40,588 nucleotides of DNA from Acidobacteriota bacterium (GTDB lineage Bacteria > Acidobacteriota > UBA6911 > RPQK01 > JAJDTT01), in the NCBI GenBank assembly GCA_028874215.1, contig JAPPLF010000011.1, positions 1 through 40,588 on the forward strand, in the 5' to 3' direction. Below, in pieces: positions 19,691-40,531 of this stretch. Made by a program: the position numbers and the translations under genes. The notes beneath the pieces are model-generated. The model did no database searches. It was given only the letters and a program-made list of their open reading frames with translations, and was not told the origin of the DNA. Positions within the stretch are counted from its first letter, which is position 1. Each line of letters begins with the position of its first letter.

Positions 19691-21463
19691 TTATTCCTCC
19701 GATGCCATCTCCTCGTCAGGCCTCATATGTCCACTCAACGGGACCACCGGCAGCGTGGTGAAGATCCCGTTGTTGGCGTCCAACTCCACGGCAACGCCGG
19801 TAAATTCCGGATTTCTTTCTCCTGCCAGGGCCGTGCAGCGCAAGGACCCGGTGAAATTGGACGTATCGTGCTCGAACAGCTCGCTGATGAACATGGCGGT
19901 CTGCCCGTTGGCCGGCAGCGTGACCTCCTGCATTTCGATCATCTCTCCACTCATCATCAAGTGGCAGGTCAACGTCAGTTCCGACTCACTCAGATTGCGC
20001 AGGGCCGCTCCCGTGTCGATCCCTCCCATCTGACGGCGGACCGGGATGATGGCGCCCTGAACCGATTGGCTGGCTCCCACGCCGGCCACCCCGATACCGG
20101 GGGCGTCAAAGCGAAGCACCCCGCCGATGGGGCTGTCGAGGCCTTCGGTGACCACCTTCACCGAGCCGGTCGTGAGGTCGCCCATGCCGTTGGTCGAAAT
20201 GGTGATCTCTCCCAGGACCGGCAGTTCGGACTGGAGGGTCAGGGCACCGAAGTCTGTGGCTTCCAGATTCCCTACGATGTCCACCATCGATTCTGGATCG
20301 ATGAGTTCGCCGCCCTTGCCGTAGAAATAGACCAGCGGCCGGATCGGCGTGGCGGCCAGGTTCACCAACACGACGTCGGAGCTGACGGAGTCGCCGTTGG
20401 CGAAATGGGCAAAGTCCAGCGCCATCTGGCTTCCCTTGTAGAAACCGGAGCCGAGGATCAGCGTCAGGCCGGGGAATACGGGGAAATCTTCAGGAAGTGT
20501 GAAAGGGGCGGCGTAGCCGACCTTGGCGGAACCTGTGTCCTCGTCCCCGACCACCGAGGGGTCGTCCCAGTAGTATTCAACGAAGCCTCCCCCCGCTTGG
20601 GCCTTCTCGATCAGCCTTCTCACAACTGGGAAATCGTTGATGGTCTGAGAATCGATCAGGTTTCGGCCGACCTGGTCCGGACGCGTCGCGTGAAAGAGGA
20701 CAACCCCCTCTTCCGTCAGAATGTACAGGTAGGTGGATCCCTGTCTCCAAGGCCCTCCCTCTCTGCGGTATTCTTCCACCAATTGAAGCAGGTCGGCGCC
20801 GAACTCATTAAAGACTTCCCGGTTCCATCCAACAGCTCCATGGACGAAAGCCTTGAGCGTCTCCCGGTCCACGACATCGCCGGCGGTGATCGCCGGCGGG
20901 TCGGGAAATTCGCCGATGTCGGTCACAACATCAGAGAGATCCTGGTAGTAACCACCGACCAGCAAAAGAGCCCCTCGACCCAGCGGAGATGTGTATTGGA
21001 CGGTGTAGCAGGTTTTGGGATTGGGGTCGGCCGGGTCTGAGGGATCGTCCCAGGAATATTCGACAAAGTCTCCGTCTTCCATGCTTTGGGCCGCCGCGAG
21101 CATTTTCGGAAAGACCTTCTCACCACGGTCGTCTTCAACGTTCGACAGGTCGATTCCGACGAAGTTCTGATCCTTTGCATGAAAAAGCACGGTGCCGCTC
21201 AACCGAAGAAGGATCAGATAGGTGTTTTCGTGTTTCCAATCCGCTTCTTGCAAGGTATCCACCAGTGCGGCGCCTTCATCGGGATCAGTAATGCTGATGA
21301 TGTAATTTCTTGCGCCGAGGACAAAAGCCTTCAGGGTTTCCCGATCCTTCACCTCACGGGCTGTGGGAGGGTCGTCCTGAGCCAGCAAGGATGGAAGGGA
21401 ACCAGATGTGACGGCCAAGCTCAGCAATATTCCGCAAATAGTCATCGTTCGTATGGACTTCAT
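19691..21463 (-). CDS. secreted protein: two Cache domains plus shared C-terminal domain
   Basis: A 590-residue exported protein. After a signal peptide (cleavage near LLAQD, residue 29) come two similar sensor-like Cache_2 units at about 38-175 and 198-345. Both begin DRETLKAFV.GA and contain an L-SGTVLFHA/EEGVVLFHA strand, GIDLSN or GRNLID, and FVEYSWDDPS or FVEYYWDDPS. The C-terminal ~235 residues (from FAHFANGDSV) form an uncharacterised beta-rich domain also present in the proteins at 31008-33161 and 36617-37903. Cache units normally sense small ligands outside receptors, but here there is no transmembrane or signalling domain, so it may be a soluble ligand-binding protein. The ATG at 21463 has GGGGGAGA upstream. 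The 11-21-11 operator lies about 110 bp upstream. Confidence 0.75.
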   Translation of the reverse strand: MKSIRTMTICGILLSLAVTSGSLPSLLAQDDPPTAREVKDRETLKAFVLGARNYIISITDPDEGAALVDTLQEADWKHENTYLILLRLSGTVLFHAKDQNFVGIDLSNVEDDRGEKVFPKMLAAAQSMEDGDFVEYSWDDPSDPADPNPKTCYTVQYTSPLGRGALLLVGGYYQDLSDVVTDIGEFPDPPAITAGDVVDRETLKAFVHGAVGWNREVFNEFGADLLQLVEEYRREGGPWRQGSTYLYILTEEGVVLFHATRPDQVGRNLIDSQTINDFPVVRRLIEKAQAGGGFVEYYWDDPSVVGDEDTGSAKVGYAAPFTLPEDFPVFPGLTLILGSGFYKGSQMALDFAHFANGDSVSSDVVLVNLAATPIRPLVYFYGKGGELIDPESMVDIVGNLEATDFGALTLQSELPVLGEITISTNGMGDLTTGSVKVVTEGLDSPIGGVLRFDAPGIGVAGVGASQSVQGAIIPVRRQMGGIDTGAALRNLSESELTLTCHLMMSGEMIEMQEVTLPANGQTAMFISELFEHDTSNFTGSLRCTALAGERNPEFTGVAVELDANNGIFTTLPVVPLSGHMRPDEEMASEE

Positions 21464-21490: not shown

Positions 21491-21735
21491 GGCGGACACA
21501 GCAAGCACGAAATAGCTGATTGCCCATGGAACCGTCTCCTTGGAAAGCGATAGACAGGCTATACTATTCGGGTGAAACTGGAGTGAAAGTGCGGTCAGAT
21601 AGGGCGAAAATATTGTGAAAAGATCGATCCTTTGTGGGCTGCGGAGAGCAGCGCACCCGGATCCTCCAACGAATCGACGTCCAGGGATGCTGAACCGAGT
21701 CTCAGTCCAGGGTCCGACACGGAGGGGGGAATTCA
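21491..21735. repeat. duplicated promoter/leader region, copy 1
   Basis: About 245 bp here match 33268-33506 in the same orientation. They begin at GGCGGACACAGCAAGC, run through the shared TATACTATTCGGGTGAAACTG and the operator, and continue into a GGATCCTCC-containing stretch. The first ~87 bp differ at only a handful of positions. The GGATCCTCC part also matches the leader of the sensor gene near 36061-36125. Confidence 0.85.
21558..21620 (-). promoter_or_regulatory. 11-21-11 operator and promoter of the double-Cache gene
   Basis: On the minus strand, TTTCAC-like hexamers end the plus-strand blocks GTGAAA at 21572 and 21583, GCGAAA at 21604 and GTGAAA at 21615. Starts are therefore spaced 11, 21 and 11 bp. 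Next to the proximal hexamer is the sequence CCGAATAGTATAGC, giving a TAGTAT or TATAGC -10 candidate 5-8 nt away. Three other sites in the window have identical spacing. Direct repeats of 11 bp are the way OmpR/PhoB-type winged-helix dimers bind. Confidence 0.75.
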
Positions 21736-22232: not shown

Positions 22233-22406
22233 TCATGAGTGTGGCCAGCACGCGGCCTCGCAGGTTTGACCGTAGCGGGGACAATTTCTCCGAAAGCGCC
22301 GGTAGCCGCAGTCCGGACAGCGGTAAGCGCGACGGGTGCGGAGCCTCTCCACCGCCTGCTTTCTGAGGTCCTCCAGCCGTTGCTCGTTAATATCAGGGGC
22401 GCTCAT
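22233..22406 (-). CDS. 57-residue zinc-ribbon-like small protein
   Basis: A short frame beginning at the ATG at 22406 encodes a polar helix (DINEQRLEDLRKQAVERLRTRRA) followed by a cysteine-rich tail. The tail has RCPDCGYRRFRRNCPRYG, then QTCEAACWPHS and a stop. Five cysteines, with a CPDCG knuckle, suggest a zinc ribbon or a similar small metal-binding fold, possibly a DNA- or RNA-binding helper. The third to fifth cysteines are oddly spaced, so the ligand set is unclear. No clear Shine-Dalgarno sequence is seen. The start region is shared with the structured repeat at 22400-22730, so the frame could be part of that element. I do not recognise a family. Confidence 0.45.
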   Translation of the reverse strand: MSAPDINEQRLEDLRKQAVERLRTRRAYRCPDCGYRRFRRNCPRYGQTCEAACWPHS

Positions 22407-22730
22407 CAGGCTCTAGCCTGCCACACCACAGGTGTCTGTTCTGGGCCTTACCGCCAAGGATAATGAGACGGGAGCGACCCCCCAGGGGGTGTTGCGCAAA
22501 TGTGAATTGCGCAACGCCCCCGCGCCCGCACCGGGCAGCAAAAAGGGGGGGTCGCTCCCGTCCACCTTCGATTTCCCCGTGCGGCCACCCTGTGGCCAAC
22601 AATATGGCCGTAACTGCATGAAAGGAAAAAAGATCCGGGAAAACGTGTTTATGAATCGCCGTGAGCGCATATTGTGAATCCATCCCGCATTTCCCATGCA
22701 CCCTCCCGGATCGGCACGAGACTCCCTTTG
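22400..22730. repeat. structured dispersed repeat, copy A
   Basis: The region matches 30195-30530 in the same orientation, in blocks: GCGCTCATCA, GCCACA/CAGGTGTC, GGGAGCGACCCC, GGGGGTCGCTCCCGTCCACC, TTTCCCCGT and GGATCGGCACG-like. A perfect 17-bp inverted repeat (22467-22483 with 22546-22562) encloses a second hairpin. In that hairpin GGGGGTGTTGCGCAA (22485-22499) pairs with 22507-22521 apart from one wobble. The layout suggests a small non-coding mobile or REP-like element. Confidence 0.7.
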
Positions 22731-27505: not shown

Positions 27506-28651
27506 CTACCGGTCGACTCCGTACATTCGTAGGTCGTACTCTCCCTGCTCAATCCAGAACCTCACTCCCATGTACTGACGGAGCTTCCAGGGAATCAGCG
27601 ACGGGAATCGTTCGAGAATCCAAGTCAGCGAAATCCCGGCTGTGCAAAGCAACCGTCGCTTTTCCTCGGGATACCCTAAACGATCAGCCAGCCGGTCACC
27701 CAGCAGCCTCCTCGAAAGCGCACAGAGGAGGTTGACAAACTTGCGGGCCACAAATGGGTTCTCGATTTTCAGGAACTCCGGGGCCGCCTCGATGAGCGCT
27801 CTGCACAGGAGCTTCGAGTTTTCGTCCGGATCGAACTCCAGGCTGCAAGCCACCTTCGTCAGGTGGCGTGCCTCCGTTTCGGACGTGAAGGAGATTTCAG
27901 TGCTGACGCCGAACAGGTAGCTGACATAGCGCCAGATCTGCAGGATGCTCTCCACGTCCTCTTGGCGGAACCGTCCTCCGAGACGCCGCATCCCATCGAT
28001 GACAAAGAGCGAAAAGATGATCGTCCCCATCGCCATGTGCGCCTGGTTCAGGGGCAGCCCCAAGGTCATGTCCCACCGGCCCGACTTGAGGATCTGGCTC
28101 CGAATCCGGGCGTGCAGAATCCGCGTGATGACTGCGAACCTGAAGCCGTCTGCATGACGTCGCATGCTGCCCGGCATGAAGACCTCGGTAAAGAACCGCG
28201 TCGCGACGGCATAGCGCCGGGCGGTGTTGCTGAGCAGGGCGTTTGAAAAGGCCAGGGGTTTGTTGCCGGTCGCAAGATAGGCGTGGGGCAGCGCGTAGAC
28301 CGCAAATGACATGGCCGGCAACAGGGCGTTCCGGATGATCTTCGCGCTCGCAAGTTTCATGCGGTCCCATTCGATCCAGGATGGAATGTGATCAAGCTGC
28401 TGAAAGAGCGCCACCAGTTCGGCCGGGGGGTTGTCCACCGAACCGATCCCGCTATCGATAGCCTGCATCAACATTCGGTATCCCTTTCGGTGCGTCGTCC
28501 GATCGAAGCAGTTCACGACGTCGTCGGCCAAGGGATCCCCGATGTGCAGGTGCTCCAAGTACGTGTCAACGGAATGTCCATACTCTGCCCGGGCCGAGGC
28601 GATTCGTTCCTCGGACAAGGGGGGATAGGGCGAACCGCCTGGACTGATCAT
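27506..28651 (-). CDS. oxygenase MpaB-family protein (DUF2236)
   Basis: A 381-residue alpha-helical protein of the MpaB/latex-clearing-protein family, heme b oxygenases that cleave isoprenoid or similar hydrophobic chains. The heme-ligand region is visible as RFAVITRILHARIRSQIL (about residue 176), followed by GLPLNQAHMAMGTIIFSLFVIDGMRRLG, which matches the family's conserved core. There is no signal peptide, so it should be cytoplasmic. It follows the sulfotransferase gene with essentially no gap: the stop of that gene abuts an in-frame TTG at 28657, and the ATG at 28651 is chosen. Transcription probably comes from the operator-bearing promoter near 29930. Substrate unknown. Confidence 0.82.
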   Translation of the reverse strand: MISPGGSPYPPLSEERIASARAEYGHSVDTYLEHLHIGDPLADDVVNCFDRTTHRKGYRMLMQAIDSGIGSVDNPPAELVALFQQLDHIPSWIEWDRMKLASAKIIRNALLPAMSFAVYALPHAYLATGNKPLAFSNALLSNTARRYAVATRFFTEVFMPGSMRRHADGFRFAVITRILHARIRSQILKSGRWDMTLGLPLNQAHMAMGTIIFSLFVIDGMRRLGGRFRQEDVESILQIWRYVSYLFGVSTEISFTSETEARHLTKVACSLEFDPDENSKLLCRALIEAAPEFLKIENPFVARKFVNLLCALSRRLLGDRLADRLGYPEEKRRLLCTAGISLTWILERFPSLIPWKLRQYMGVRFWIEQGEYDLRMYGVDR

Positions 28652-28657
28652 TCGCAA

Positions 28658-29701
28658 CTAAGCCAGGGAAGGTCGGGTACTGTAGCCCAGTATGGACTGG
28701 CCGGGCTCGCACGCATCCGCCAGGGTCCGATGCTCGTCCGGAGCGAGGCGAGGCCAGCGAGCCTCTTGTGGACGGACGACTGAAGCAGCAGACTCGATCC
28801 AACGGGAATCCTCGAATTCCGAACCGACGAACCGGATGAATCGGCCGAGTTCCTCGCGCGGGTGGGCGAGAAGCTTCTCGTATGACACTGCCAGGACTCG
28901 TTCTGGCGGCAAGGCGTTCAGGTACTTTGTACCTCGCTCAATCATGTCGCTCCAGAACCTCCCGAACGATGGAAGCTCGATGACTTGCCGCCGGTAGTGG
29001 TCAGCGGAGAAGATGAATTTGAACCACATCCAACTTAGCCAAGGAACCCAAGGACTGGTGCCAGGCACGTTGAACGGGTGGAACGGGTCGATCCCGAGCC
29101 GGCGCATCCTTCCTGCGGCCAGCACGCGCCAGCGGAAAAAGTGATGCCTTTGCATGGACAAGGCCGTGTCCCGGCCGTCTCGATAGAGGTGCACGAACCG
29201 CGCGTCGGGAAATAACCGCGCCAGTGTCGGCACGAACGGCAGCGAAGCCCCGGAACGCTCGATCCAGACCGACTTGCCGAAGCGGCGACCAAGCCATTCG
29301 AAAACGAACCGGTATTGGTCAGCAAGCGATTCGTCGCCTCTTTCGCGCAATGCCGCGGCCAGCTCGTCCCAGGTGCGCTCCGCGTCGTCTGTAATATGGG
29401 GCATCGTCGAACCCATGATCGGCGGAATATTGTGCCGCTGGTATCGCGATCCAGGAGCGAATTCGTAAAGGAATTCGTCCAGCTGCAACCCGTTTTCGAG
29501 CAACGCCCGCCCTTCGGGCGTCAGCGAGTTGAGACGTCGAAAGGTCGCCTCCCCGGACAGCCGCTGGCCGAGGAACGCCTGGCTGGCCAACGAGGTGAAA
29601 AACTCCGAGACGCTGAGCAGGTCGGGGTGCTGCCGGACCATGTTGGACAGCATCGTCGAACCGCACCGTCCTGTGCCGACGATGAGAACTGGAGCGAACA
29701 C
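28658..29701 (-). CDS. sulfotransferase family protein
   Basis: A ~347-residue PAPS-dependent sulfotransferase (Sulfotransfer_3 type). The 5'-phosphosulfate loop is VLIVGTGRCGSTML at the N-terminus. The 3'-phosphate site is FVHLYRDGRDTALSMQRH in the middle, and VLAVSYEKLLAHPREELGRFIRFVG is the usual late helix-strand region. It transfers sulfate to hydroxyl groups of carbohydrates, lipids or small molecules; the acceptor is not evident. The start is uncertain: the GTG at 29701 fits the family N-terminus, while a TTG at 29725 is also in frame. It forms a two-gene unit with the MpaB-like oxygenase. Its promoter region, about 220 bp upstream, carries one of the four 11-21-11 operators. Confidence 0.85.
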   Translation of the reverse strand: MFAPVLIVGTGRCGSTMLSNMVRQHPDLLSVSEFFTSLASQAFLGQRLSGEATFRRLNSLTPEGRALLENGLQLDEFLYEFAPGSRYQRHNIPPIMGSTMPHITDDAERTWDELAAALRERGDESLADQYRFVFEWLGRRFGKSVWIERSGASLPFVPTLARLFPDARFVHLYRDGRDTALSMQRHHFFRWRVLAAGRMRRLGIDPFHPFNVPGTSPWVPWLSWMWFKFIFSADHYRRQVIELPSFGRFWSDMIERGTKYLNALPPERVLAVSYEKLLAHPREELGRFIRFVGSEFEDSRWIESAASVVRPQEARWPRLAPDEHRTLADACEPGQSILGYSTRPSLA

Positions 29702-29920
29702 GGAGGAAACCCCCGGCAGAAGCAACAGACGCTAAGGTGGACCAGCAATCCGACTGGCGGGCAACGCGCCGCCCAAATTGCGAGCCCCTTGCGCCGCACA
29801 CGCCCTGGTACGACAACCCAAGCCAGTTGGTATTCTGATGTGGTTCGGACCTTCCTTGGCCTTCGGGAAGAATCCGGCCGGTACGTGAACTCCCATAGGG
29901 CTCCAAGAGCGAATGAGAAT

Positions 29921-29986
29921 ATTATGGCAAAATCCCTATGAATCTAGCGTGAAATCCGAGGATAATCGGGAGAAAATACCGTGAAA
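29921..29986 (-). promoter_or_regulatory. 11-21-11 operator and promoter upstream of the sulfotransferase
   Basis: Plus-strand blocks ATGAAT (29938), GTGAAA (29949), GAGAAA (29970) and GTGAAA (29981) are TTTCAC-like hexamers on the minus strand, with 11, 21 and 11 bp between starts. The proximal unit (ATTCAT) is the weakest. Eleven nt further lies CATAAT (29926-29921), a good -10. The leader to the sulfotransferase start is about 210 nt. The spacing is identical to the three other operators. Confidence 0.7.
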
Positions 29987-31007
29987 TTATGCGGCGAAGC
30001 GCCCTTCTTCCGTCTGCTCCGCCGAGCGTAGAAGAATTTCAAACTCGGCTACTCCGGCGAGGCGATGCAAGAATAGCGGGCAGTCAGGGGAGTGTTTCAG
30101 ACTACGAAAAAAGGAATGATGCCGGTCTGAATTGGCGGCCATCTGCAAGCACCTTGGCCGCTTGGTGAGGAGCCAGTTCCAGGTTACTGTTCCGGGCGCT
30201 CATCACGCTCTAATCTGCCACATCTCAGGTGTCATCTAAGGCCTTCCCGCCAGGGATCAATTGGACGGGAGCGACCCCTTCAAGGCGATGGCACGGAGAG
30301 TGCACATCAGCCCGGCCCGCATTGCCGATCCGGGAGGCAAGAAGGGGGGGTCGCTCCCGTCCACCTCCGCTTTCCCCGTACGGGATCGCCGAGCCGCGAG
30401 ACGATCCGTAACCCGAACGGGGACAGCAGGTTAGAGAAAAGTCTCCGTGCACGTCGAAGAACCCTCATGGTGCACATGCCCCCCATTGTCTCGTGTGCAC
30501 TCCCCGATCGGCACGGAACCCCACTTTTCAACGGTCAAGTTTGAGCTCCCGGACATCGGCTCAAACGCCAGATCCCGAAGCCTGCCCGGAGAACCACCAC
30601 GGCGGATCAACGGAGCCGGACGGACGCCGGTTGCCGACTCTCGCCAACCAGACAGCTCGCCCAGTCGTCCGTGAGCCGCCCCCGGTTTCGTTCGACAAGC
30701 CCCTCTGTGCCCCAGGGCTGTAGCTGCGCTCAAGGGGGAGGCGAAAATTTCGACGTCTACGGCGCCGTGACAGCCGCGCTGATGTGGGCAATCCGTTGGC
30801 AACGTTGGCAGAAGCGGAAAACCGCTCCATCAGGATGCCTCGCGGCGGCTCTTCCACCTCGGGGTCGACCAGGTCGTTGGGGTAGTGGGGTCAGGGAGCT
30901 ACGCCGTGTCGATCTGGGAAGTGCCAGGTTGGACACAGTTCATACTATTCTGGTGTGAATCGGCCTGCGCTTTGGTTGTCGATGGGCGCCACGGAACGGG
31001 CAGTGAT
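29987..31007. other. gene-poor region with repeat copy B
   Basis: About 1 kb without a supported gene. It contains the structured repeat (30195-30530). Before it, on the minus strand, a short frame starts MSARNSNLELAPHQAAKVL (ATG at 30203) and is stopped after ~34 codons just after a six-base T run. The same peptide segment is found at 33524-33572 on the plus strand (RNGNLELSLHLAAKVL), so it is a small decayed repeat. The rest holds nothing I can name. Confidence 0.45.
30195..30530. repeat. structured dispersed repeat, copy B
   Basis: Second copy of the element at 22400-22730. GGACGGGAGCGACCCC (30263-30278) pairs perfectly with 30347-30362 around a ~68-nt loop. The loop differs from copy A and lacks its inner TTGCGCAA hairpin, but both flanks are related. 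Compensated arms with a diverged loop suggest that the stem is what is maintained. Confidence 0.7.
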
Positions 31008-33175: not shown

Positions 33176-33227
33176 CAAGCCAGATACGTCATCACAATCA
33201 GCAAGCCAGATACGTCATCACAATCAG
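33176..33227. repeat. perfect 26-bp tandem repeat in the metalloprotease leader
   Basis: The 26 bp at 33176-33201 are repeated exactly at 33202-33227, 15 bp upstream of the metalloprotease start codon in the mRNA leader. Each unit contains ACGTCATCACAATC. It is either a recent slippage duplication or a leader element. Confidence 0.85.
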
Positions 33228-33267: not shown

Positions 33268-33506
33268 GGCGGACACAGCAAGCGCGAAATAACTGATTGC
33301 CCATGGAACTGTCTCCTTGGAAAGCAATAGACAGGCTATACTATTCGGGTGAAACTGACGTGAAATAGCGGCCAGATATGGCGATTTTATCGTGAAATTA
33401 TCGATTGTCGTTTGCGGGCTGCGGAGAGCGGTGCACCCAGATCCTCCATCGAATCGACGTATAGGGACGATGAACCGAGGCTCGGTCCGGGGTCCGAGGA
33501 GGTTGG
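33268..33506. repeat. duplicated promoter/leader region, copy 2
   Basis: Matches 21491-21735, including promoter, operator and the GATCCTCCATCGAATCGA leader that resembles the leader of the sensor gene (around 36061-36125, opposite orientation). Similarity to the sensor stops at GAGGAGGTTGG, immediately before where its start codon would be. Confidence 0.85.
33335..33397 (-). promoter_or_regulatory. 11-21-11 operator and promoter of the metalloprotease gene
   Basis: Plus-strand GTGAAA at 33349 and 33360, GCGATT at 33381 and GTGAAA at 33392 give 11-21-11 spacing and face the metalloprotease gene as TTTCAC units. The -10 region (CCGAATAGTATAGC on the minus strand) is the same as in the Cache promoter. 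The third hexamer is degenerate. Confidence 0.72.
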
Positions 33507-33708: not shown

Positions 33709-36060
33709 TCACGGATCATTTGGCCTGGGCATGCGGTAGCCGACCCTGCGCTCGGTAAAGATGTAGGCCGGACTGGCCGCGTCATCGCTCAACTTACGGC
33801 GGAGCAGCTTCACGAAGGCGCGCACCGGACGATGGTCTCCGGATTCATCCCGGCCCCACACTTGGCGCAGCAGGGTGGCGTAGGTCGTGACCCGTCCCGC
33901 GTTGACCGAGAGCGCTCGCAGCAACTCGTATTCGGTGGCCGTAAGTGGCACCGGGCGGTCGGCCAGGGTGACCCGGCGTCCCTCGTAGTCGATGGTCAGG
34001 TCCCCCAACCGAAACGATTCGGGTGGCTTATATCGCTTACGCAGGGCAGCCCGGACTCTCGCCACCAATTCCGTCGGCGAGAAGGGCTTGACGATGTAAT
34101 CGGTGGCTCCGGCATCCAGGGCCCGGACGACGGTTTCATCCCCGCCGTAGCCAGAGATGAAGATGACGGGCAACTCGGCCAGTTCGGGGACACGTTGCAT
34201 CAACTCGATGCCGTCGGTCCCGGGCAACACCAGGTCCAGCAGCACCATTTGGGGCTGTTTCATCCTGACCAGATGGGAGACCTGGTCCGTTTCCCCCGTC
34301 AGCAGCGGATCGTAGCCGCCCGCCGTGAGAGCGTCCCGAACGTAGCCGAGCGTCTGAGGGTCATCTTCCACGACCAAGATGCGCGGTTTCTCCGGACCTT
34401 CCACGGGCGGGCGAGACGAACTCCTCGCAGAATCGGCCGACGCATTCCTCGCAGATTCTTCGGCCACCGGAATCGTGAAGGTGAACCGCGTTCCCAGACC
34501 GGGCCCTCCACTCTCGGCCCGAATCCGCCCACCATGGGCCTCCACGAGACCCTTGCAGATAGCTAGACCCAGGCCAGACCCCCCGATCCCGCGACCGGCG
34601 ACACGCGTATGCTTGCGGAACAGGTGCGGCAGCAGTTCTGGAGCCACTCCCCGGCCTTCGTCCGCGACTGAGATCGCCACATAGACACCGTCGCTCACAG
34701 CGGCGACCTCGATGGGGGTCGACTGGGGAGCGTTTCTGGCTGCGTTGGACAAGAGATTGTTCAGAACCTGGACGATTCGCTGCCGGTCGGCCTCAACCCG
34801 GGGCAGGTCCGGCGGGAGGTCGATGCAGACGGTGTGCCGGCCGCCCCCGCTCAGGAACGTGTTCCTAGCTTGGTCCACCAAGCTAGCGACATCGACGGCC
34901 TCGGGAGCGACCGAGAGCGTGCCCGCCTCGATACTTCCTGCATCCAACAGGTCGTTGATCAGGCCCTGCATATGATCGGCCTGCTCGTCGATGATGCGCA
35001 GGAACTGCCGTATTGCGACCGGATCCGGTGCCGGTGAGGTGCCCAGTGCGGTGGTGGTCGAGCCCTTGATGGAGGTCAACGGAACCCGTAGCTCGTGGCT
35101 CACCATGCCCAGGAAATCGGCCCGCATCCGCTCCAACTCCTCCAGCGGCGCCAGATCCTGCAGGGTGACGACCATGGACTCGAGGGCGCCGTCGGCGGAA
35201 TGGATCGGCGTAGCATTGATCAACGTCGTAATGCTCCGGCCGTCGGGAACCTCGAGGACGATCTCTTCGGCGCGCACCGTCTCGCCACTGCTCAGAGCCT
35301 GGGCCAGAGACAACTCTTCAAGCGAGATCCCCCGTCCGTCAGCGCGCCGAAACGTCAGGGATTCAAGCAGTTGCTCCGGGTCCCGGCCCGGCTGGCCGAG
35401 GCTCCTGACGATTCGCTTCGCCTCCCGGTTGAGCGACACTGGTTTGCCGGTTCGGGCATCAAAGATGATGATCCCCACTGGCGAAGTGTCGACCAGGACC
35501 TCCAGGTTGGCTCGGGCCCGCTGTTCGCCCCGGTGTGTGCGGGCATTGACGATGGCCGTGGCCGCCTGCGCGCCGAACAGCACCAGGACCTCTTCGTCCT
35601 CGCTCGTGAACTCTCGTCCGCCTTCCTTCTCGCCGAGGAAGAAGTAGCCGGTATGCACGCCTCGATGCCGCATGGGCGTGCACTGGAAGGTCTGCGACGG
35701 AATCGGGCCTGGGGAATGGCCGTGCGACCGGACGTAGCCGGGAAAATCGCGCAGTCTCAGCGGGCCCGGGAGATCCCGGAAGTGTTCAAACAAACGGAGT
35801 CCGTCGGGCCATTCGGCCACCCGTTGGTGCTCGGCGGCAGTGATGCCGGAGGTGACGAACTCCAGGGCCTGTTCCGACTCGCCGAGTGTCACCACCCCGC
35901 CGAAGCGGGCGCCGGTCAGCGCGCGGGCGCCGTCGACGACCTCGCGCAAGACGGTACTGAGGTCGAGGCTCTCGCTGATACGCAGGATCGCCGCGGTCAA
36001 CCTGGAGATGCGGTCCCGCGGCAGCTCGGTTTCTTGCCTCAAATCGTCGCGACTCTTCAT
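33709..36060 (-). CDS. one-protein two-component regulator: GAF-PAS-HisKA-HATPase-REC-OmpR wHTH
   Basis: A 783-residue cytoplasmic protein joining sensor kinase and transcription factor. Domains in order: DosS-like GAF (about 30-175, LFGAQAATAIVNAR); PAS (180-300); HisKA with phospho-accepting His322 in MVSHELRVPLTS; HATPase_c (420-533) with NNLLSNAARNAP, DEGRGVAP and GSGLGLAICKGLVEAHGG; receiver (559-675) with Asp566/567, phospho-accepting Asp609 in LLDLVLPG, and Lys658 in IVKPFS; and an OmpR/PhoB winged helix (682-777) with LTATEYELLRALSVNAGRV and RRVGYRMP. There are no membrane segments, so the signal is intracellular. The usual export of phosphate to a separate regulator is unnecessary. 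The divergent operon and three other promoters carry 11-bp direct repeats suited to this DNA-binding type. The ATG at 36060 begins MKSRDDL. Confidence 0.92.
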   Translation of the reverse strand: MKSRDDLRQETELPRDRISRLTAAILRISESLDLSTVLREVVDGARALTGARFGGVVTLGESEQALEFVTSGITAAEHQRVAEWPDGLRLFEHFRDLPGPLRLRDFPGYVRSHGHSPGPIPSQTFQCTPMRHRGVHTGYFFLGEKEGGREFTSEDEEVLVLFGAQAATAIVNARTHRGEQRARANLEVLVDTSPVGIIIFDARTGKPVSLNREAKRIVRSLGQPGRDPEQLLESLTFRRADGRGISLEELSLAQALSSGETVRAEEIVLEVPDGRSITTLINATPIHSADGALESMVVTLQDLAPLEELERMRADFLGMVSHELRVPLTSIKGSTTTALGTSPAPDPVAIRQFLRIIDEQADHMQGLINDLLDAGSIEAGTLSVAPEAVDVASLVDQARNTFLSGGGRHTVCIDLPPDLPRVEADRQRIVQVLNNLLSNAARNAPQSTPIEVAAVSDGVYVAISVADEGRGVAPELLPHLFRKHTRVAGRGIGGSGLGLAICKGLVEAHGGRIRAESGGPGLGTRFTFTIPVAEESARNASADSARSSSRPPVEGPEKPRILVVEDDPQTLGYVRDALTAGGYDPLLTGETDQVSHLVRMKQPQMVLLDLVLPGTDGIELMQRVPELAELPVIFISGYGGDETVVRALDAGATDYIVKPFSPTELVARVRAALRKRYKPPESFRLGDLTIDYEGRRVTLADRPVPLTATEYELLRALSVNAGRVTTYATLLRQVWGRDESGDHRPVRAFVKLLRRKLSDDAASPAYIFTERRVGYRMPRPNDP

Positions 36061-36149: not shown

Positions 36150-36214
36150 TTTCACAACACTTTCTCCATAACAACTAATACTTTCACGGCTGTTTCACGA
36201 ACACGATCTATACT
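36150..36214 (+). promoter_or_regulatory. 11-21-11 operator and promoter of the divergent operon
   Basis: TTTCAC at 36150, TTTCTC at 36161, TTTCAC at 36182 and TTTCAC at 36193: starts are 11, 21 and 11 bp apart. Exactly 10 nt after the last hexamer lies TATACT (36209-36214), the same geometry as the Pho promoter at 3678. The site lies between the sensor gene (minus strand) and the operon starting at 36368 (plus strand), and faces the operon. A leader of about 145 nt follows. Confidence 0.8.
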
Positions 36215-36367: not shown

Positions 36368-36583
36368 ATGTGGGGTTCCTATTACGACAAACGTAGCGTC
36401 GTCATTCAACTTGAAACCGCCGGCATGCACGCCCAGCAGGCCGAAGCCGTGGCGCATGCCATCGGCTACAGCAGGGATCCGGCGGTCACCCGAGCGGAGT
36501 TGAGGGTGGCTCTGCGCTGGGCAGCCTTGGGGATCGTCGCTGTCAACATCGTCGTCACAGTAGTCCTCATCAGATGCTTGTAG
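36368..36583 (+). CDS. small tail-anchored membrane protein (DUF1640/CCDC90-like)
   Basis: A 71-residue protein. An amphipathic helical part, VVIQLETAGMHAQQAEAVAHAI, resembles the start of DUF1640/CCDC90-type coiled-coil proteins. A short linker with AVTRAELRVALRW leads to a C-terminal membrane helix (ALGIVAVNIVVTVVLIRCL). Such proteins form membrane-anchored coiled-coil oligomers, sometimes linked to transporters; the role here is not known. The ATG at 36368 has GGGAGAGG upstream; longer in-frame starts at 36287 or before look non-coding. First gene of the operon downstream of the operator, 33 bp before the next gene. Confidence 0.6.
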   Translation: MWGSYYDKRSVVIQLETAGMHAQQAEAVAHAIGYSRDPAVTRAELRVALRWAALGIVAVNIVVTVVLIRCL

Positions 36584-36616
36584 CGACGGCTTGCAGGCGA
36601 AGTGGGTGAGGCTAGC

Positions 36617-37903
36617 ATGAAGAAACCCCTTGTCCCATTGGTTGCGTTGTTCAGATTGCCCGCCGTGGTGTATGCGGAGCGAAGACCCGATCGGACATTG
36701 GAGGCGTTGGAGAATGCTCTGCAAAAGTTCGAATCGCTACGTCAAAACCAGACTGCTGACAGTGATTGGGAAGTGTTGGTGAATTCTCCAGAAGAGGGCT
36801 TTGCTGCTGCCACAGGGGACCGGACTACGTTGTTGAGCGCAGTATGTCTCCCAGATGCAAATTCGTATGGGGCCATTCTTCTTTGGCGAGGAGAGGATTC
36901 TCTCGGCACCGATTACGATGATTTTGAAGACCAACCAGTCACCCTCAACTGGCGCGATCCAGACTCCACGCAGCGGACAGAGTGGATGCACCTGTCAGAC
37001 GATGATGGGGTGTTTGACTCCGTCTCGCTCCTTGACCGACTGAAACCTCAGGAAACTGACGATTTCCTGGATCGACTTACAGGCCACGCTGAACTGAACA
37101 TCATCGTGGCGGTTACAGAGAACGGTCGCACGAAACAGGCGACGTTTTCATTGGCTGGAGCCCCCTCGGCAGAAACAGTCAAGGCTTGCGGTAAGGAACA
37201 GACATCGGCCGGGACAACACTCTATTTTCCCGACTATGTCGATGGGGGAGGGTGGACCATACAGATGGTGCTCAGCAACCTCGACCCGAGCCGGAATGCA
37301 TCGGCGGCCGTGACCGCCTTCGATCCCCAGGGGCGGGAGGTTTCGGGACTCTTCGGCTCTGGGAGCCGCTTCGACATTCCCTCTCTTGGCAGTCGGCTCA
37401 TGCGAAGCCCGGGGACGGGGGACATTAGGCGCGGTTGGATCGAGGTCGATGCTGATTCCAGTTTAATCCGTGGATTGTTGACCTACCGCAACGCCGATTC
37501 CGGCGTGGAGGTCGGCGTGGAACCGGTCGAGTTGGGAGATCAATTCACTTTGTTCGTGGAAGAGTCGAGCGACATCGGAACCGGCGTGGCGATCTTCAAA
37601 CGGGAGGCTGCCGCTCGAATCGAGCTCCGAATCCGGAACAAGGAGGGCTACGACCCGGTAGAGGGGGTGTTCGTGCGGCACGGGGACTTTCACCAACGGG
37701 CTTGGAAAATTCAGGAATGGTTCACCGATAGGGGAGTCCATACTCAGTTCCTGAAGAATTTCCGTGGACTACTGTTTCTGCGGACGGATGACGGTTCACC
37801 GTTCGCACCAGTTGGACTGAGGTTCGGAAAGCGAACGGGATCACTCTCGGCAGTTCCGGTGTTCCGAGGCGGGAACGTCTCGGGCGGTCTGCCGTCCGAC
37901 TGA
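36617..37903 (+). CDS. secreted protein with the shared uncharacterised domain
   Basis: A 428-residue exported protein. A signal peptide covers about the first 20 residues (KKPLVPLVALFRLPAVVYA). An unrecognised N-terminal region of ~180 residues follows, acidic and beta-rich, with TLLSAVCLPDANSYGAILLW. From about residue 200 it carries the domain seen in the Cache and metalloprotease proteins: LYFPDYVDGGGWTIQMVLSN, RRGWIEVDADSSLIRGLLTY, FVEESSDIGTGVAIF, FRGLLFLR and PVGLRFGKRTGSLSAVPV. The ATG at 36617 with GGTGAGG upstream is better than the GTG at 36602. It lies in the divergent operon, 33 bp after the small membrane protein and 24 bp before the solute-binding protein. Confidence 0.7.
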   Translation: MKKPLVPLVALFRLPAVVYAERRPDRTLEALENALQKFESLRQNQTADSDWEVLVNSPEEGFAAATGDRTTLLSAVCLPDANSYGAILLWRGEDSLGTDYDDFEDQPVTLNWRDPDSTQRTEWMHLSDDDGVFDSVSLLDRLKPQETDDFLDRLTGHAELNIIVAVTENGRTKQATFSLAGAPSAETVKACGKEQTSAGTTLYFPDYVDGGGWTIQMVLSNLDPSRNASAAVTAFDPQGREVSGLFGSGSRFDIPSLGSRLMRSPGTGDIRRGWIEVDADSSLIRGLLTYRNADSGVEVGVEPVELGDQFTLFVEESSDIGTGVAIFKREAAARIELRIRNKEGYDPVEGVFVRHGDFHQRAWKIQEWFTDRGVHTQFLKNFRGLLFLRTDDGSPFAPVGLRFGKRTGSLSAVPVFRGGNVSGGLPSD

Positions 37904-37927
37904 CTACACATTCAAAGGAGGTGTCTG

Positions 37928-38797
37928 ATGCGGAGAACTCACGCCGTGTGTGCTCTGGTCGTTATTGTCCTGATTGGCCCTGTTAGCGTACAGGGAATGG
38001 CCCAGGGGTTCTCTTGGTGGGCCTACGATAGCGTTCTGGAGGAGATCCAGGACAGGGGAGCGCTGAAAGTCGGACTGGGCCTGTTCACGCCTTGGTCGGC
38101 CTGCGATACAAACGGTGAGCTGATCGGCTTTGAGATCGATGTCGCGACCAAATTGGCCGAGGATATCGGGGTGATGGTGGAATTTGAGCGGACGAACTGG
38201 CACTACATCATTCCGGCCCTGGTGGCAGAGGAGTTTGACGCCATCATCAGTGGCCTGGCGATCCTTCCAGGGAGGAATCTCAAGGTCAATTACACGTCAC
38301 CGTACAACGGGATCGGTGTCTACTTGGTGGCGAGCGTAGCGAAAGCCTCCGACTTGGAAACATTAGCCGACTTCAACAGTTCCAGCGTCACGATCGCGAC
38401 TCGGCGGGGAGCCTCATCCGTAGGCTTTGTGGCGAGTGTTTTTCCCGATGCAATGTTGCTGTTGGTCGATACCGATACCGAGGTCATCCAGGCCGTCGTT
38501 TCGGGGGACGCTCATGCTGCGGCATCATTCGAGCCGAATCAAGAGACGTGGGTGGAGGCCAACCCGGAGACCCTGTACCTGCCATTCGAGGAGCCGTTTG
38601 CTTCGGAGGTGGGAGCGATGGCCATCCGCAAAGGCGATCTCGACACCTTGAATTTCTTCAATAGCTGGATTGCGGCCAACAAGGCCAATGGTTGGCTCGA
38701 ACAGCGCCGCCATTATTGGTTCGAGACCCGCGAATGGGCCGATCAGGTCGCGACCGATCCCGACACGATCGCTGAGTGCGATGAATCCTTTCAGTAG
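37928..38797 (+). CDS. periplasmic solute-binding protein, family 3 (amino-acid type)
   Basis: A 289-residue exported protein of the SBP_bac_3 family, which binds amino acids or similar polar solutes. The signal peptide ends near VQGMAQ (residue 26). Typical blocks are LKVGLGLFTPWSACDTNGELIGFEIDVA, FERTNWHYIIPALVAEEFDAIISGLAILPGR and YTSPYNGIGVYLV. The Arg that contacts the ligand carboxylate in this family fits PGR. There is no lipobox Cys and no permease or ATPase gene nearby, so it either serves a distant transporter or works as a ligand sensor. A near-perfect ribosome site, AAAGGAGGTG, precedes the ATG at 37928, so high expression is likely. Confidence 0.85.
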   Translation: MRRTHAVCALVVIVLIGPVSVQGMAQGFSWWAYDSVLEEIQDRGALKVGLGLFTPWSACDTNGELIGFEIDVATKLAEDIGVMVEFERTNWHYIIPALVAEEFDAIISGLAILPGRNLKVNYTSPYNGIGVYLVASVAKASDLETLADFNSSSVTIATRRGASSVGFVASVFPDAMLLLVDTDTEVIQAVVSGDAHAAASFEPNQETWVEANPETLYLPFEEPFASEVGAMAIRKGDLDTLNFFNSWIAANKANGWLEQRRHYWFETREWADQVATDPDTIAECDESFQ

Positions 38798-38941
38798 CTG
38801 GCCGGGGGTGGGAGCGCCTAGACGGTCCGCTATGTGCCGGATGGACTTTTCCTCCGGGTGGTCCGTGCAATTCCTCGAAGCCCCAAGTTCACCATTTGGA
38901 GAAAACCCCCTCCCGAACCCTTGATCTCTTCCGAGGACCAC

Positions 38942-39322
38942 ATGTCTTTAGAACACACCTTGTCTGATCCCCCCGATCAACTCAATAAACGGGCTTTCAT
39001 CGGGAATTCAATCGTCATCAAGGGGGATGTGAGCGGCGATCAGGATCTGGTCGTCCATGGCCGCATCGAAGGAACGGTGTCGCTCCCCGGATACAGCATC
39101 ACCGTGGGCCATGATGGCCTAGTCAAAGGCGACATGATCGCCAAGGTGATTCGGATCGAGGGTACTGTGGAAGGAGAACTTCAGGGTGAAGACAAAATTC
39201 TTCTAGATCGATCCGCAAAGGTTCGAGGCAAAATCACCTCCCCCCGAGTCGCTCTGGAAGATGGATGCCGGTTTAGCGGTGGCATCCACATGACTGGCGT
39301 TGGGGAGCGCGATGCTGAATAA
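38942..39322 (+). CDS. bactofilin
   Basis: A 126-residue bactofilin, a polymerising right-handed beta-helix protein that forms nucleotide-free filaments at membranes. The core shows the repeating pattern FIGNSIVIKGDVSGDQDLVVHGRIEGTVSLP, then VKGDMIAKVIRIEGTVEGELQGEDKILLDRSAKVRGKITSPRVALEDG, which is the PF04519 fold. The N-terminal SLEHTLSDPPDQLNKRAF tail may help membrane binding. The ATG at 38942 has GAGG upstream; there are ~145 bp to the previous gene. In other bacteria bactofilins place cell-wall or surface machinery, which would fit the neighbouring CsgG-like gene. Confidence 0.88.
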   Translation: MSLEHTLSDPPDQLNKRAFIGNSIVIKGDVSGDQDLVVHGRIEGTVSLPGYSITVGHDGLVKGDMIAKVIRIEGTVEGELQGEDKILLDRSAKVRGKITSPRVALEDGCRFSGGIHMTGVGERDAE

Positions 39323-39583
39323 CCGGAGTTCGGCACTGGGAGCGATTCTGGGGGGCAAAGGTGTTGCGCCGGGGGCGAGAGTCGCTTGGCAGGTGGCATC
39401 GCTTGAGACGCCAGCATCGGATGTGGCCCCCCGAAAACGGCACCCTTACGGTTGTCACACTCGATCACACGGCCTTGGACAAGGGGCTTCTTGACACGAT
39501 AGGAGTGAACCACAACGGCCCTGACTACAAGGCGTGGCGGGCGGGCTTCATTGTTGCTAGTGGCCGCAGATGGAGGATTTCAC
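39323..39583. other. intergenic region between bactofilin and CsgG-like genes
   Basis: About 260 bp. One plus-strand frame is open through it and into the next gene, but it has no ribosome site and no recognisable content. Nothing else is seen. Confidence 0.4.
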
Positions 39584-40531
39584 ATGAAACGGATCGGGGC
39601 TGTCTTTCTAACGATCGTACTCTATTCCACCGGACTGTTTGCGCAGAAGAAGCGGGTGGCAGTGATGGACTTCGATTTTTCCACCATTCAGAAATGGTGG
39701 GAAAGCAACTGGGACGTCGGCAAGGGAATAGGTGACCTGATCGTTGACGAATTGGTCAACAATGGCACCTTCAGCGTGATTGAGCGAAAGCAGCTCGACA
39801 CCATCTTGGCCGAGCAAGACTTTTCAAATAGCAACCGCGCCAATCCCGGATCCGCGGCCGAGATCGGAAAGCTCCTGGGAGTGGACGCCATCATCATCGG
39901 CAGCGTCACCCAGTTTGGGGTCGAGAAGAAGGGATTCGGCCTGGGTGCCATCGCCGGTAAGCTGCGGAGATTTGGGGGCGGAGGCATAGGTACCAAAAAG
40001 GGGAAAGCAGAGGTCAAGCTGACGGCCCGAATCGTGGATATCAACACAGCCGAGATCTTAGCTTCCGAGAGGGGAAACGGTAAGTCGGAGCGCTCCGGCC
40101 TGCTGCTGGGAGGCATCGGCGTGAGTGGAGGCGGTTTTGGCGCAGGGGGGATCTCGATGACCAGCAGCGACTATCGCGAGACGGTGCTGGGTGAGGCAAC
40201 TGAGGCCGCCGTTAGCGAACTGTCCGACAAGCTAATCAGGAAAGCCGACCGAGTGCCCGCGAGGGTGATCCTGGTTCGTGGCCTGGTGGCCGACGTGGAC
40301 GGCTCGACGTTGACTCTGAACGTGGGTTCCTCAGCGGGTGTCAAAGTCGGCGACACGCTGAAGATTTTGCGGGTGACACGAACGGTCAAGGACCCTGCTA
40401 CCGGCAAGGTTCTGCGAGAGGTCGCCCAGGATCAGGGGCAGGTCCGTATCGACGATGTCGCCGCCGGTTTCTCGGTTGGCACTGTGACCACCGGGTCCGA
40501 TATTCAGATCGGAGATCTGGTGCGGAATTGA
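39584..40531 (+). CDS. CsgG/FlgT-related periplasmic or outer-membrane protein
   Basis: A 315-residue exported protein. After a signal peptide (KRIGAVFLTIVLYSTGLFA) comes a CsgG-family domain: KRVAVMDFDF, IGDLIVDELVNNGTFSVIERKQLDTILAEQDF, and LLGVDAIIIGSVTQFG. A Gly-rich segment follows (LLLGGIGVSGGGFGAGG). The C-terminal ~80 residues (LVRGLVADVDGSTLTLNVGSSAGVKVGDTLKILRV) resemble the beta-barrel module found in FlgT and related proteins. No lipobox Cys is present, unlike true curli exporter CsgG, so I would not call it a pore. The ATG at 39584 has GGAGG 7 nt upstream. It is the last gene seen of the operon; 57 bp remain to the window end. Confidence 0.85.
   Translation: MKRIGAVFLTIVLYSTGLFAQKKRVAVMDFDFSTIQKWWESNWDVGKGIGDLIVDELVNNGTFSVIERKQLDTILAEQDFSNSNRANPGSAAEIGKLLGVDAIIIGSVTQFGVEKKGFGLGAIAGKLRRFGGGGIGTKKGKAEVKLTARIVDINTAEILASERGNGKSERSGLLLGGIGVSGGGFGAGGISMTSSDYRETVLGEATEAAVSELSDKLIRKADRVPARVILVRGLVADVDGSTLTLNVGSSAGVKVGDTLKILRVTRTVKDPATGKVLREVAQDQGQVRIDDVAAGFSVGTVTTGSDIQIGDLVRN

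Follow-up and report, generated by a model that had tools for sequence, protein, structure and literature searches.

A genus-restricted four-box operator and a divergent hybrid kinase at an acidobacterial locus with an orphan solute-binding protein, a bactofilin and a CsgG-like protein

The genes of the locus and their spacing

We have analysed a window of 40588 bp, the complete contig C11 of an acidobacterium (host genome 5.7 Mb, 97.5% complete), and describe here a row of five genes, the four-box operator 5' of them and the hybrid kinase-regulator that diverges from them. The window's own genome is termed G000 and other genomes of the genus G001, G002 and G003, G001 and G002 being two congeners that are 98% and 94% complete; C-numbers denote contigs and L-numbers loci. 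The nearest relatives in the public collection are Acidobacteriota metagenome-assembled genomes (MAGs) by name, one of which (COS4_bin_49) is labelled Aminicenantes. Coscinoderma and Rhopaloeides sponges have been sampled for MAGs (PMC8163846), and the isolate prefixes COS and RHO of related MAGs point to these two sponges, suggesting that the genomes belong to those samples; the host acidobacterium probably lives in a sponge. A tRNA search of the window gave no match, nor was any anti-phage defence family matched. The features at the locus are the following.

33709..36060, minus strand: hybrid regulator, 783 aa, GAF-PAS-HisKA-HATPase-REC-winged helix (Trans_reg_C) in one chain by Pfam, divergent from the operon
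36150..36198, plus strand: operator; boxes TTTCAC, TTTCTC, TTTCAC and TTTCAC at 36150, 36161, 36182 and 36193 (offsets 0, 11, 32 and 43)
36209..36214, plus strand: putative -10 element TATACT, judged from the sequence, 10 nt past the last box
36368..36583, plus strand: g1, 71 aa, with a hydrophobic helix at the C-terminus, faintly CCDC90-like (PF07798, E 0.29, under the cut-off)
36617..37903, plus strand: g2, a secreted protein of 428 aa whose residues ~193-420 form a tandem beta-sandwich module
37928..38797, plus strand: orphan family-3 solute-binding protein (SBP), 289 aa, with a signal peptide and the residue pair C59/C284 (PF00497, E 1.7e-24)
38942..39322, plus strand: bactofilin, 126 aa (PF04519, E 2e-20, 73.3 bits against a curated cut-off of 27.9)
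39584..40531, plus strand: CsgG/FlgT_C protein (CsgG), secreted, lacking a lipobox (PF03783, E 6.4e-41; FlgT_C, E 1e-9)

A first-pass annotation of the window had presented these five genes as an operon. The genes themselves were borne out, each reading frame lying at or near the place assigned to it and each family being confirmed by Pfam and by sequence. Close spacing is limited to g1, g2 and the SBP, with gaps of 33 bp between g1 and g2 and 24 bp between g2 and the SBP, the latter holding a good ribosome-binding site, while the SBP-bactofilin and bactofilin-CsgG gaps measure 144 and 261 bp. Judged by this spacing, a transcript likely spans g1-g2-SBP; expression of bactofilin and CsgG may depend on read-through or on separate starts. 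A scan of the coding strand between the genes for sigma-70 promoters and terminators, itself a weak one, returned nothing above chance. Purifying selection is indicated by dN/dS values against G003 of 0.13 for the SBP, 0.22 for g2 (part), 0.25 for bactofilin and 0.26 for CsgG, so that the four are real genes and not decaying reading frames; their dS values differ, ranging from 0.11 to 0.37. The window stops 57 bp 3' of CsgG, at the contig end (40588). In G003, CsgG is followed by a gene for an Na+/H+ antiporter on the opposite strand, and CsgG is therefore probably the final gene of the unit.

The four-box operator and the divergent kinase

The sequence 5' of g1 reads TTTCAC AACAC TTTCTC, 15 bp, TTTCAC GGCTG TTTCAC, 10 bp, TATACT, so that boxes of the nnTCAC type follow one another with a spacing of 11-21-11. 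An equal spacing from boxes to TATAAT is found at the paralogous loci C83, G001-C51 and G003-C187. TTTCACN5TTTCAC with at most two mismatches occurs 9 times in the window against 1.8 expected, a number reached by no shuffle, and three of the four exact sites in the 5.7-Mb genome lie on the window contig. Genome-wide, a pattern of four TCAC cores (at most two mismatches) was compared with the reversed pattern as a control, giving ratios of 15:1 in G000, 12:3 in G001, 3:0 in G002 and 6:1 in G003 (36 vs 5 in sum). In four genomes of other genera the pattern did not rise above the reversed control (4:3 in sum). The operator pointed out in the first-pass annotation is genuine by both its excess over shuffles in the window and its genome-wide excess over the reversed control, and four-box operators are confined to the genus. 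The simple palindromes TGTTTCACGAACA and CTCTGATTTAGAG were also tried as the operator and rejected, their frequency not being clearly above chance.

Kinase, receiver and DNA-binding domains of the regulator are all carried by one chain, and its sensor part comprises, in Pfam, GAF and PAS only, which are intracellular types. The host genome holds 10 copies, the other nine being 64-69% identical over the matched stretch, with 5 matches in G001, 3 in G002 and 5 in G003; no paralogue was found at E <= 1e-100 in the searched genomes of other genera. The operator geometry is near-fixed across the family, occurring 5' of 18 of 20 sampled paralogues and always directed away from the kinase, with 14 of these 18 operators scoring at least 13/16 and most lying 120-139 bp from the assumed start. 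Operator letters covary with the recognition helix, in that box 2 ends in CAG for all five kinases with the helix (I/V/L)VHA(F/L/V)VKR and for none of the 13 others (Fisher 1.2e-4, shared ancestry uncorrected). Most simply, each kinase would bind the operator that separates it from its divergent target, and for the operon itself the predicted control by the neighbouring kinase has good, though indirect, support. Together with loci L173 and L185-L204, window positions 33709-36060 document a genus-level expansion of such one-chain kinases with divergent operators of this type.

Operators of the PhoB/OmpR type consist of direct repeats with an 11-bp period near the -10. The window operator likewise presents 11-bp direct repeats near a -10, but it differs in having two box pairs with the inner boxes 21 bp apart, in its paralogue-specific letters and in a regulator that is fused to its kinase. 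In Bacteroides, hybrid two-component systems (HTCS) adjoin polysaccharide-utilisation loci. These are one-chain kinase-receiver-DNA-binding regulators present in many paralogues (PMC11253607). The family described here resembles them in joining the three domains in one chain, in its many paralogues and in the probable control of surface or secreted ligand-handling genes, whereas the HTCS sensor lies in the membrane and the present one is of the cytoplasmic GAF/PAS type, coupled to an OmpR-type winged helix and a four-box operator; no SusC/D-type genes were recognised at the window locus.

Three further operators lie on the opposite strand of the window, with these genes behind them.

33349..33397, minus strand: second operator, of the same type, 5' of the M6-like/module protein; retained in G003 (contig C59)
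31008..33161, minus strand: M6-like/module protein, secreted, 717 aa, with a g2-type module at residues ~15-235 and an M6-peptidase-like region with HExxH (TIGR03296, E 1.3e-4, under the cut-off)
29938..29986, minus strand: third operator, 5' of a sulfotransferase and an MpaB/Lcp-like oxygenase
27506-29725, minus strand: the pair of genes for these two enzymes, following the operator at 29986
21572..21620, minus strand: fourth operator, 5' of the secreted Cache-module protein
19691..21463, minus strand: Cache-module protein, secreted, 590 aa, with Cache domains, a module-like C-terminal region (read from sequence) and no recognised output domain

The 0-11-32-43 layout is shared by the operators at 33397(-), 29986(-) and 21620(-), and module proteins stand behind three of the four window operators. 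The Cache-module protein (19691-21463, minus strand) carries Cache sensor domains without kinase or chemoreceptor output and would be a second partnerless ligand binder under the same operator type. The g2 module has 27 matches in the host genome. Its predicted structure is an all-beta tandem (pLDDT 92.6), the first half of which fits Thermotoga TM1070 (1nc7) with a Z of 11.5 and an rmsd of 2.1 over 97 residues, as against Z 6.4 for the following match; Foldseek gave no convincing full-length match to the module. Eight of 21 module members match PF18986 (DUF5719) weakly (best E 4.2e-6). The module is thus linked to DUF5719 by distant sequence matches of some members and to TM1070 by the fold of its first half, but it differs in comprising two sandwiches in tandem and in being part of secreted proteins, and the window copy has no Pfam match. 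Because its position in the chain varies, a role as a C-terminal sorting signal appears improbable. At G002 locus L174 (6084-12467), g2 homologues lie inside longer proteins of 732 and 1357 aa, the second with fn3 and cadherin-like matches, and g2 may be a shortened form of such proteins.

The surrounding sequence carries traces of local duplication, namely the promoter regions of two operator-driven genes (21491-21717 and 33268-33497, 86-88% alike) and a second pair of stretches (22379-22584 and 30176-30383, 78-86%). The leader of the M6-like gene contains a perfect 26-bp tandem duplication (33176-33227).

The orphan binding protein and its neighbours in related genomes

The SBP has neither permease nor ATPase beside it, as the first-pass annotation had noted, and no permease elsewhere in the genome could be matched to it, the only two HEQRo permeases above cut-off genome-wide both lying beside another SBP on C23. 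The wider family (35-50% identity), in Desulfobacterota, Spirochaetota and others, adjoins permeases (BPD_transp_1), at some loci together with an ATPase. Within the group that shares C59 (and C284 where the sequence allows), a permease occurs at 0 of 18 loci vs 48 of 62 others (p 1.3e-9, ancestry uncorrected and some contigs short). In a quick tree, this group lies entirely to the same side of a 99% branch. It includes sequences from MAGs classified as Acidobacteriota, Binatota, Desulfurellaceae and Gammaproteobacteria, many of them probably from sponges. Its Acidobacteriota, Binatota and Desulfurellaceae members are 63-72% identical to the window SBP, a similarity that suggests horizontal sharing.

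In amino-acid SBPs, an Asp binds the amino group of the ligand. The closest solved chain to the window SBP is 9e2b (E 5e-65), and alignment reveals an incomplete amino-acid site, the carboxylate-binding Arg being kept (R116) and the Asp position being occupied by F201. The protein thus shares fold family and R116 with family-3 amino-acid ABC binding proteins such as 9e2b but differs in the replaced Asp, the extra C59/C284 and the missing permease and ATPase. With R116, F201 and N204 taken together, a carboxylate other than an amino acid is a reasonable guess for the ligand. An AlphaFold prediction of the SBP from an 8-row alignment reached a pLDDT of 34 and the model was set aside.

Conservation of the gene order, on which the proposed operon depended, was found in one relative but not in two others. 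G003, a separate species-level genome and the nearest relative, keeps g2-SBP-bactofilin-CsgG with protein identities of 84.5%, 94%, 82% and 94%, respectively, and with conserved SBP-bactofilin spacing, while the bactofilin-CsgG gap is 261 bp in the window vs 127 bp in G003 and mostly not alignable. In G001 and G002, the SBP orthologue (69-70%) is solitary, a close CsgG orthologue is absent and bactofilin is found elsewhere or as a fragment; homology around the SBP begins at the ribosome-binding site and gives out ~50 bp beyond the stop codon, where the contexts start to differ. The G001 fragment consists of the final ~43 codons at 85% nucleotide identity, straight after a serine-tRNA-like sequence recognised by eye (L226, 6447-6570), and resembles an insertion or deletion scar.

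The signal peptide of CsgG ends in ...YSTGLFAQKKR and lacks the lipobox Cys. Its CsgG and FlgT_C domains (Pfam) recall the CsgG curli channel and FlgT; it differs in the missing lipobox, in the FlgT_C domain fused behind and in that no curli genes are recognised nearby. Curli or fibre genes were not recognised among the Pfam-scanned neighbours in a window that ends 57 bp past CsgG. Throughout order and class there are relatives at 50-69% identity, which in five genomes follow c1, a conserved secreted protein of ~190 aa for which no counterpart was found in the window's genus. This pairing (loci L159, L160, L162, L163 and L165) extends over order and class, and c1 has no Pfam match and an end like WKYSGYSLxFExGxLKEIR. 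By its distribution, CsgG is a conserved order-level gene with an apparently lineage-specific arrival at the window locus. Bactofilins, for their part, are recurrent neighbours of four-box operators, adjoining or closely trailing them at C61 and C108, with a partial one after the operator-driven M6/module gene in G003 contig C59 (cut by the contig end). The literature containing both words, bactofilin and CsgG, concerned functional amyloids, judged by titles only, when searched for a described pair.

A probable kinase-driven local regulon and its alternatives

We consider it probable that at this locus the kinase drives a local regulon of secreted module proteins, into which an orphan SBP was recruited and behind which bactofilin and CsgG came to lie in one lineage. 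A cytoplasmic signal would be read by the GAF/PAS part of the regulator, leading the kinase to phosphorylate the receiver of its own chain; binding of the winged-helix ends to the four TTTCAC boxes would follow and bring polymerase to the -10 ten bases downstream. Three further local promoters under the same regulator would complete a local regulon, mostly of secreted proteins sharing the beta-sandwich module, in which the orphan SBP, probably shared horizontally, would bind its ligand without an ABC transporter. We infer a function in extracellular ligand capture or display rather than in fibre building. Several points weigh against this interpretation. The C61 and C66 operators reach just 12/16, the Fisher values take no account of shared ancestry, and the operator 5' of the operon is not checkable in G003, whose contig starts inside g2. 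In addition, no operators were found 5' of the SBP and CsgG orthologues in other genomes, so that the regulon membership of these two genes rests on two related genomes.

The operator might instead serve g1-g2, with SBP, bactofilin and CsgG independently expressed and having drifted or inserted behind them in one lineage. The end of SBP homology ~50 bp beyond the stop codon, the solitary SBP elsewhere, the G001 remnant of bactofilin next to a tRNA-like sequence and the unequal dS of the four genes all fit such chance neighbourhood, which we nevertheless regard as unlikely given the 24-bp g2-SBP gap with its good ribosome-binding site, the order retained in G003 and intergenic gaps in which the weak scan detected no sigma-70-type promoter.

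Somewhat less probable still is the proposal of the first-pass annotation, a dedicated five-gene system on one transcript in which the SBP senses a solute, bactofilin scaffolds the membrane and CsgG is responsible for making or placing a surface structure. Equal order and purifying selection in the comparison with G003, the same SBP-bactofilin spacing in both genomes and the recurrence of bactofilin near related operators are in its favour. However, the set is missing in G001 and G002, CsgG is paired elsewhere with c1, the bactofilin-CsgG gap is large and non-conserved, and no curli-type partners or fibre genes are recognised. Nor is the suggested response to a solute upheld, as the GAF/PAS types of the regulator are intracellular and no link between the regulator and the SBP came to light. 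As far as these genomes indicate, binding protein, bactofilin and CsgG-like protein came together recently in one lineage and do not form a conserved machine. Were the SBP not a binder but a secreted enzyme resembling cyclohexadienyl dehydratase, the missing transporter would be accounted for, yet this is very improbable. Reconstructed dehydratase ancestors are among the closest solved relatives of the SBP, but the position of the catalytic general acid, Glu173 (PMC7683729), is Asn204 in the SBP (alignment to AncCDT-1, numbering inferred from Tyr177) and mostly Thr/Ser in its sisters.

Read as a kinase-driven local regulon, a puzzling gene list becomes a testable regulatory unit. More tentatively, and with considerable doubt, genus-specific one-piece kinases, each with its own operator code, may run private secreted ligand-binding or display proteins (module proteins, the orphan SBP, output-less Cache proteins) together with bactofilin, as a new surface-sensing or display system, probably of sponge bacteria. 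The kinase family, with 10 copies here and 3-5 per congener, its operators and the code relating helix to operator form a natural data set on the avoidance of cross-talk in fused two-component regulators. The orphan SBP clade, spread across MAGs of several phyla that are probably sponge dwellers, suggests that secreted ligand binders can circulate without their transporters.

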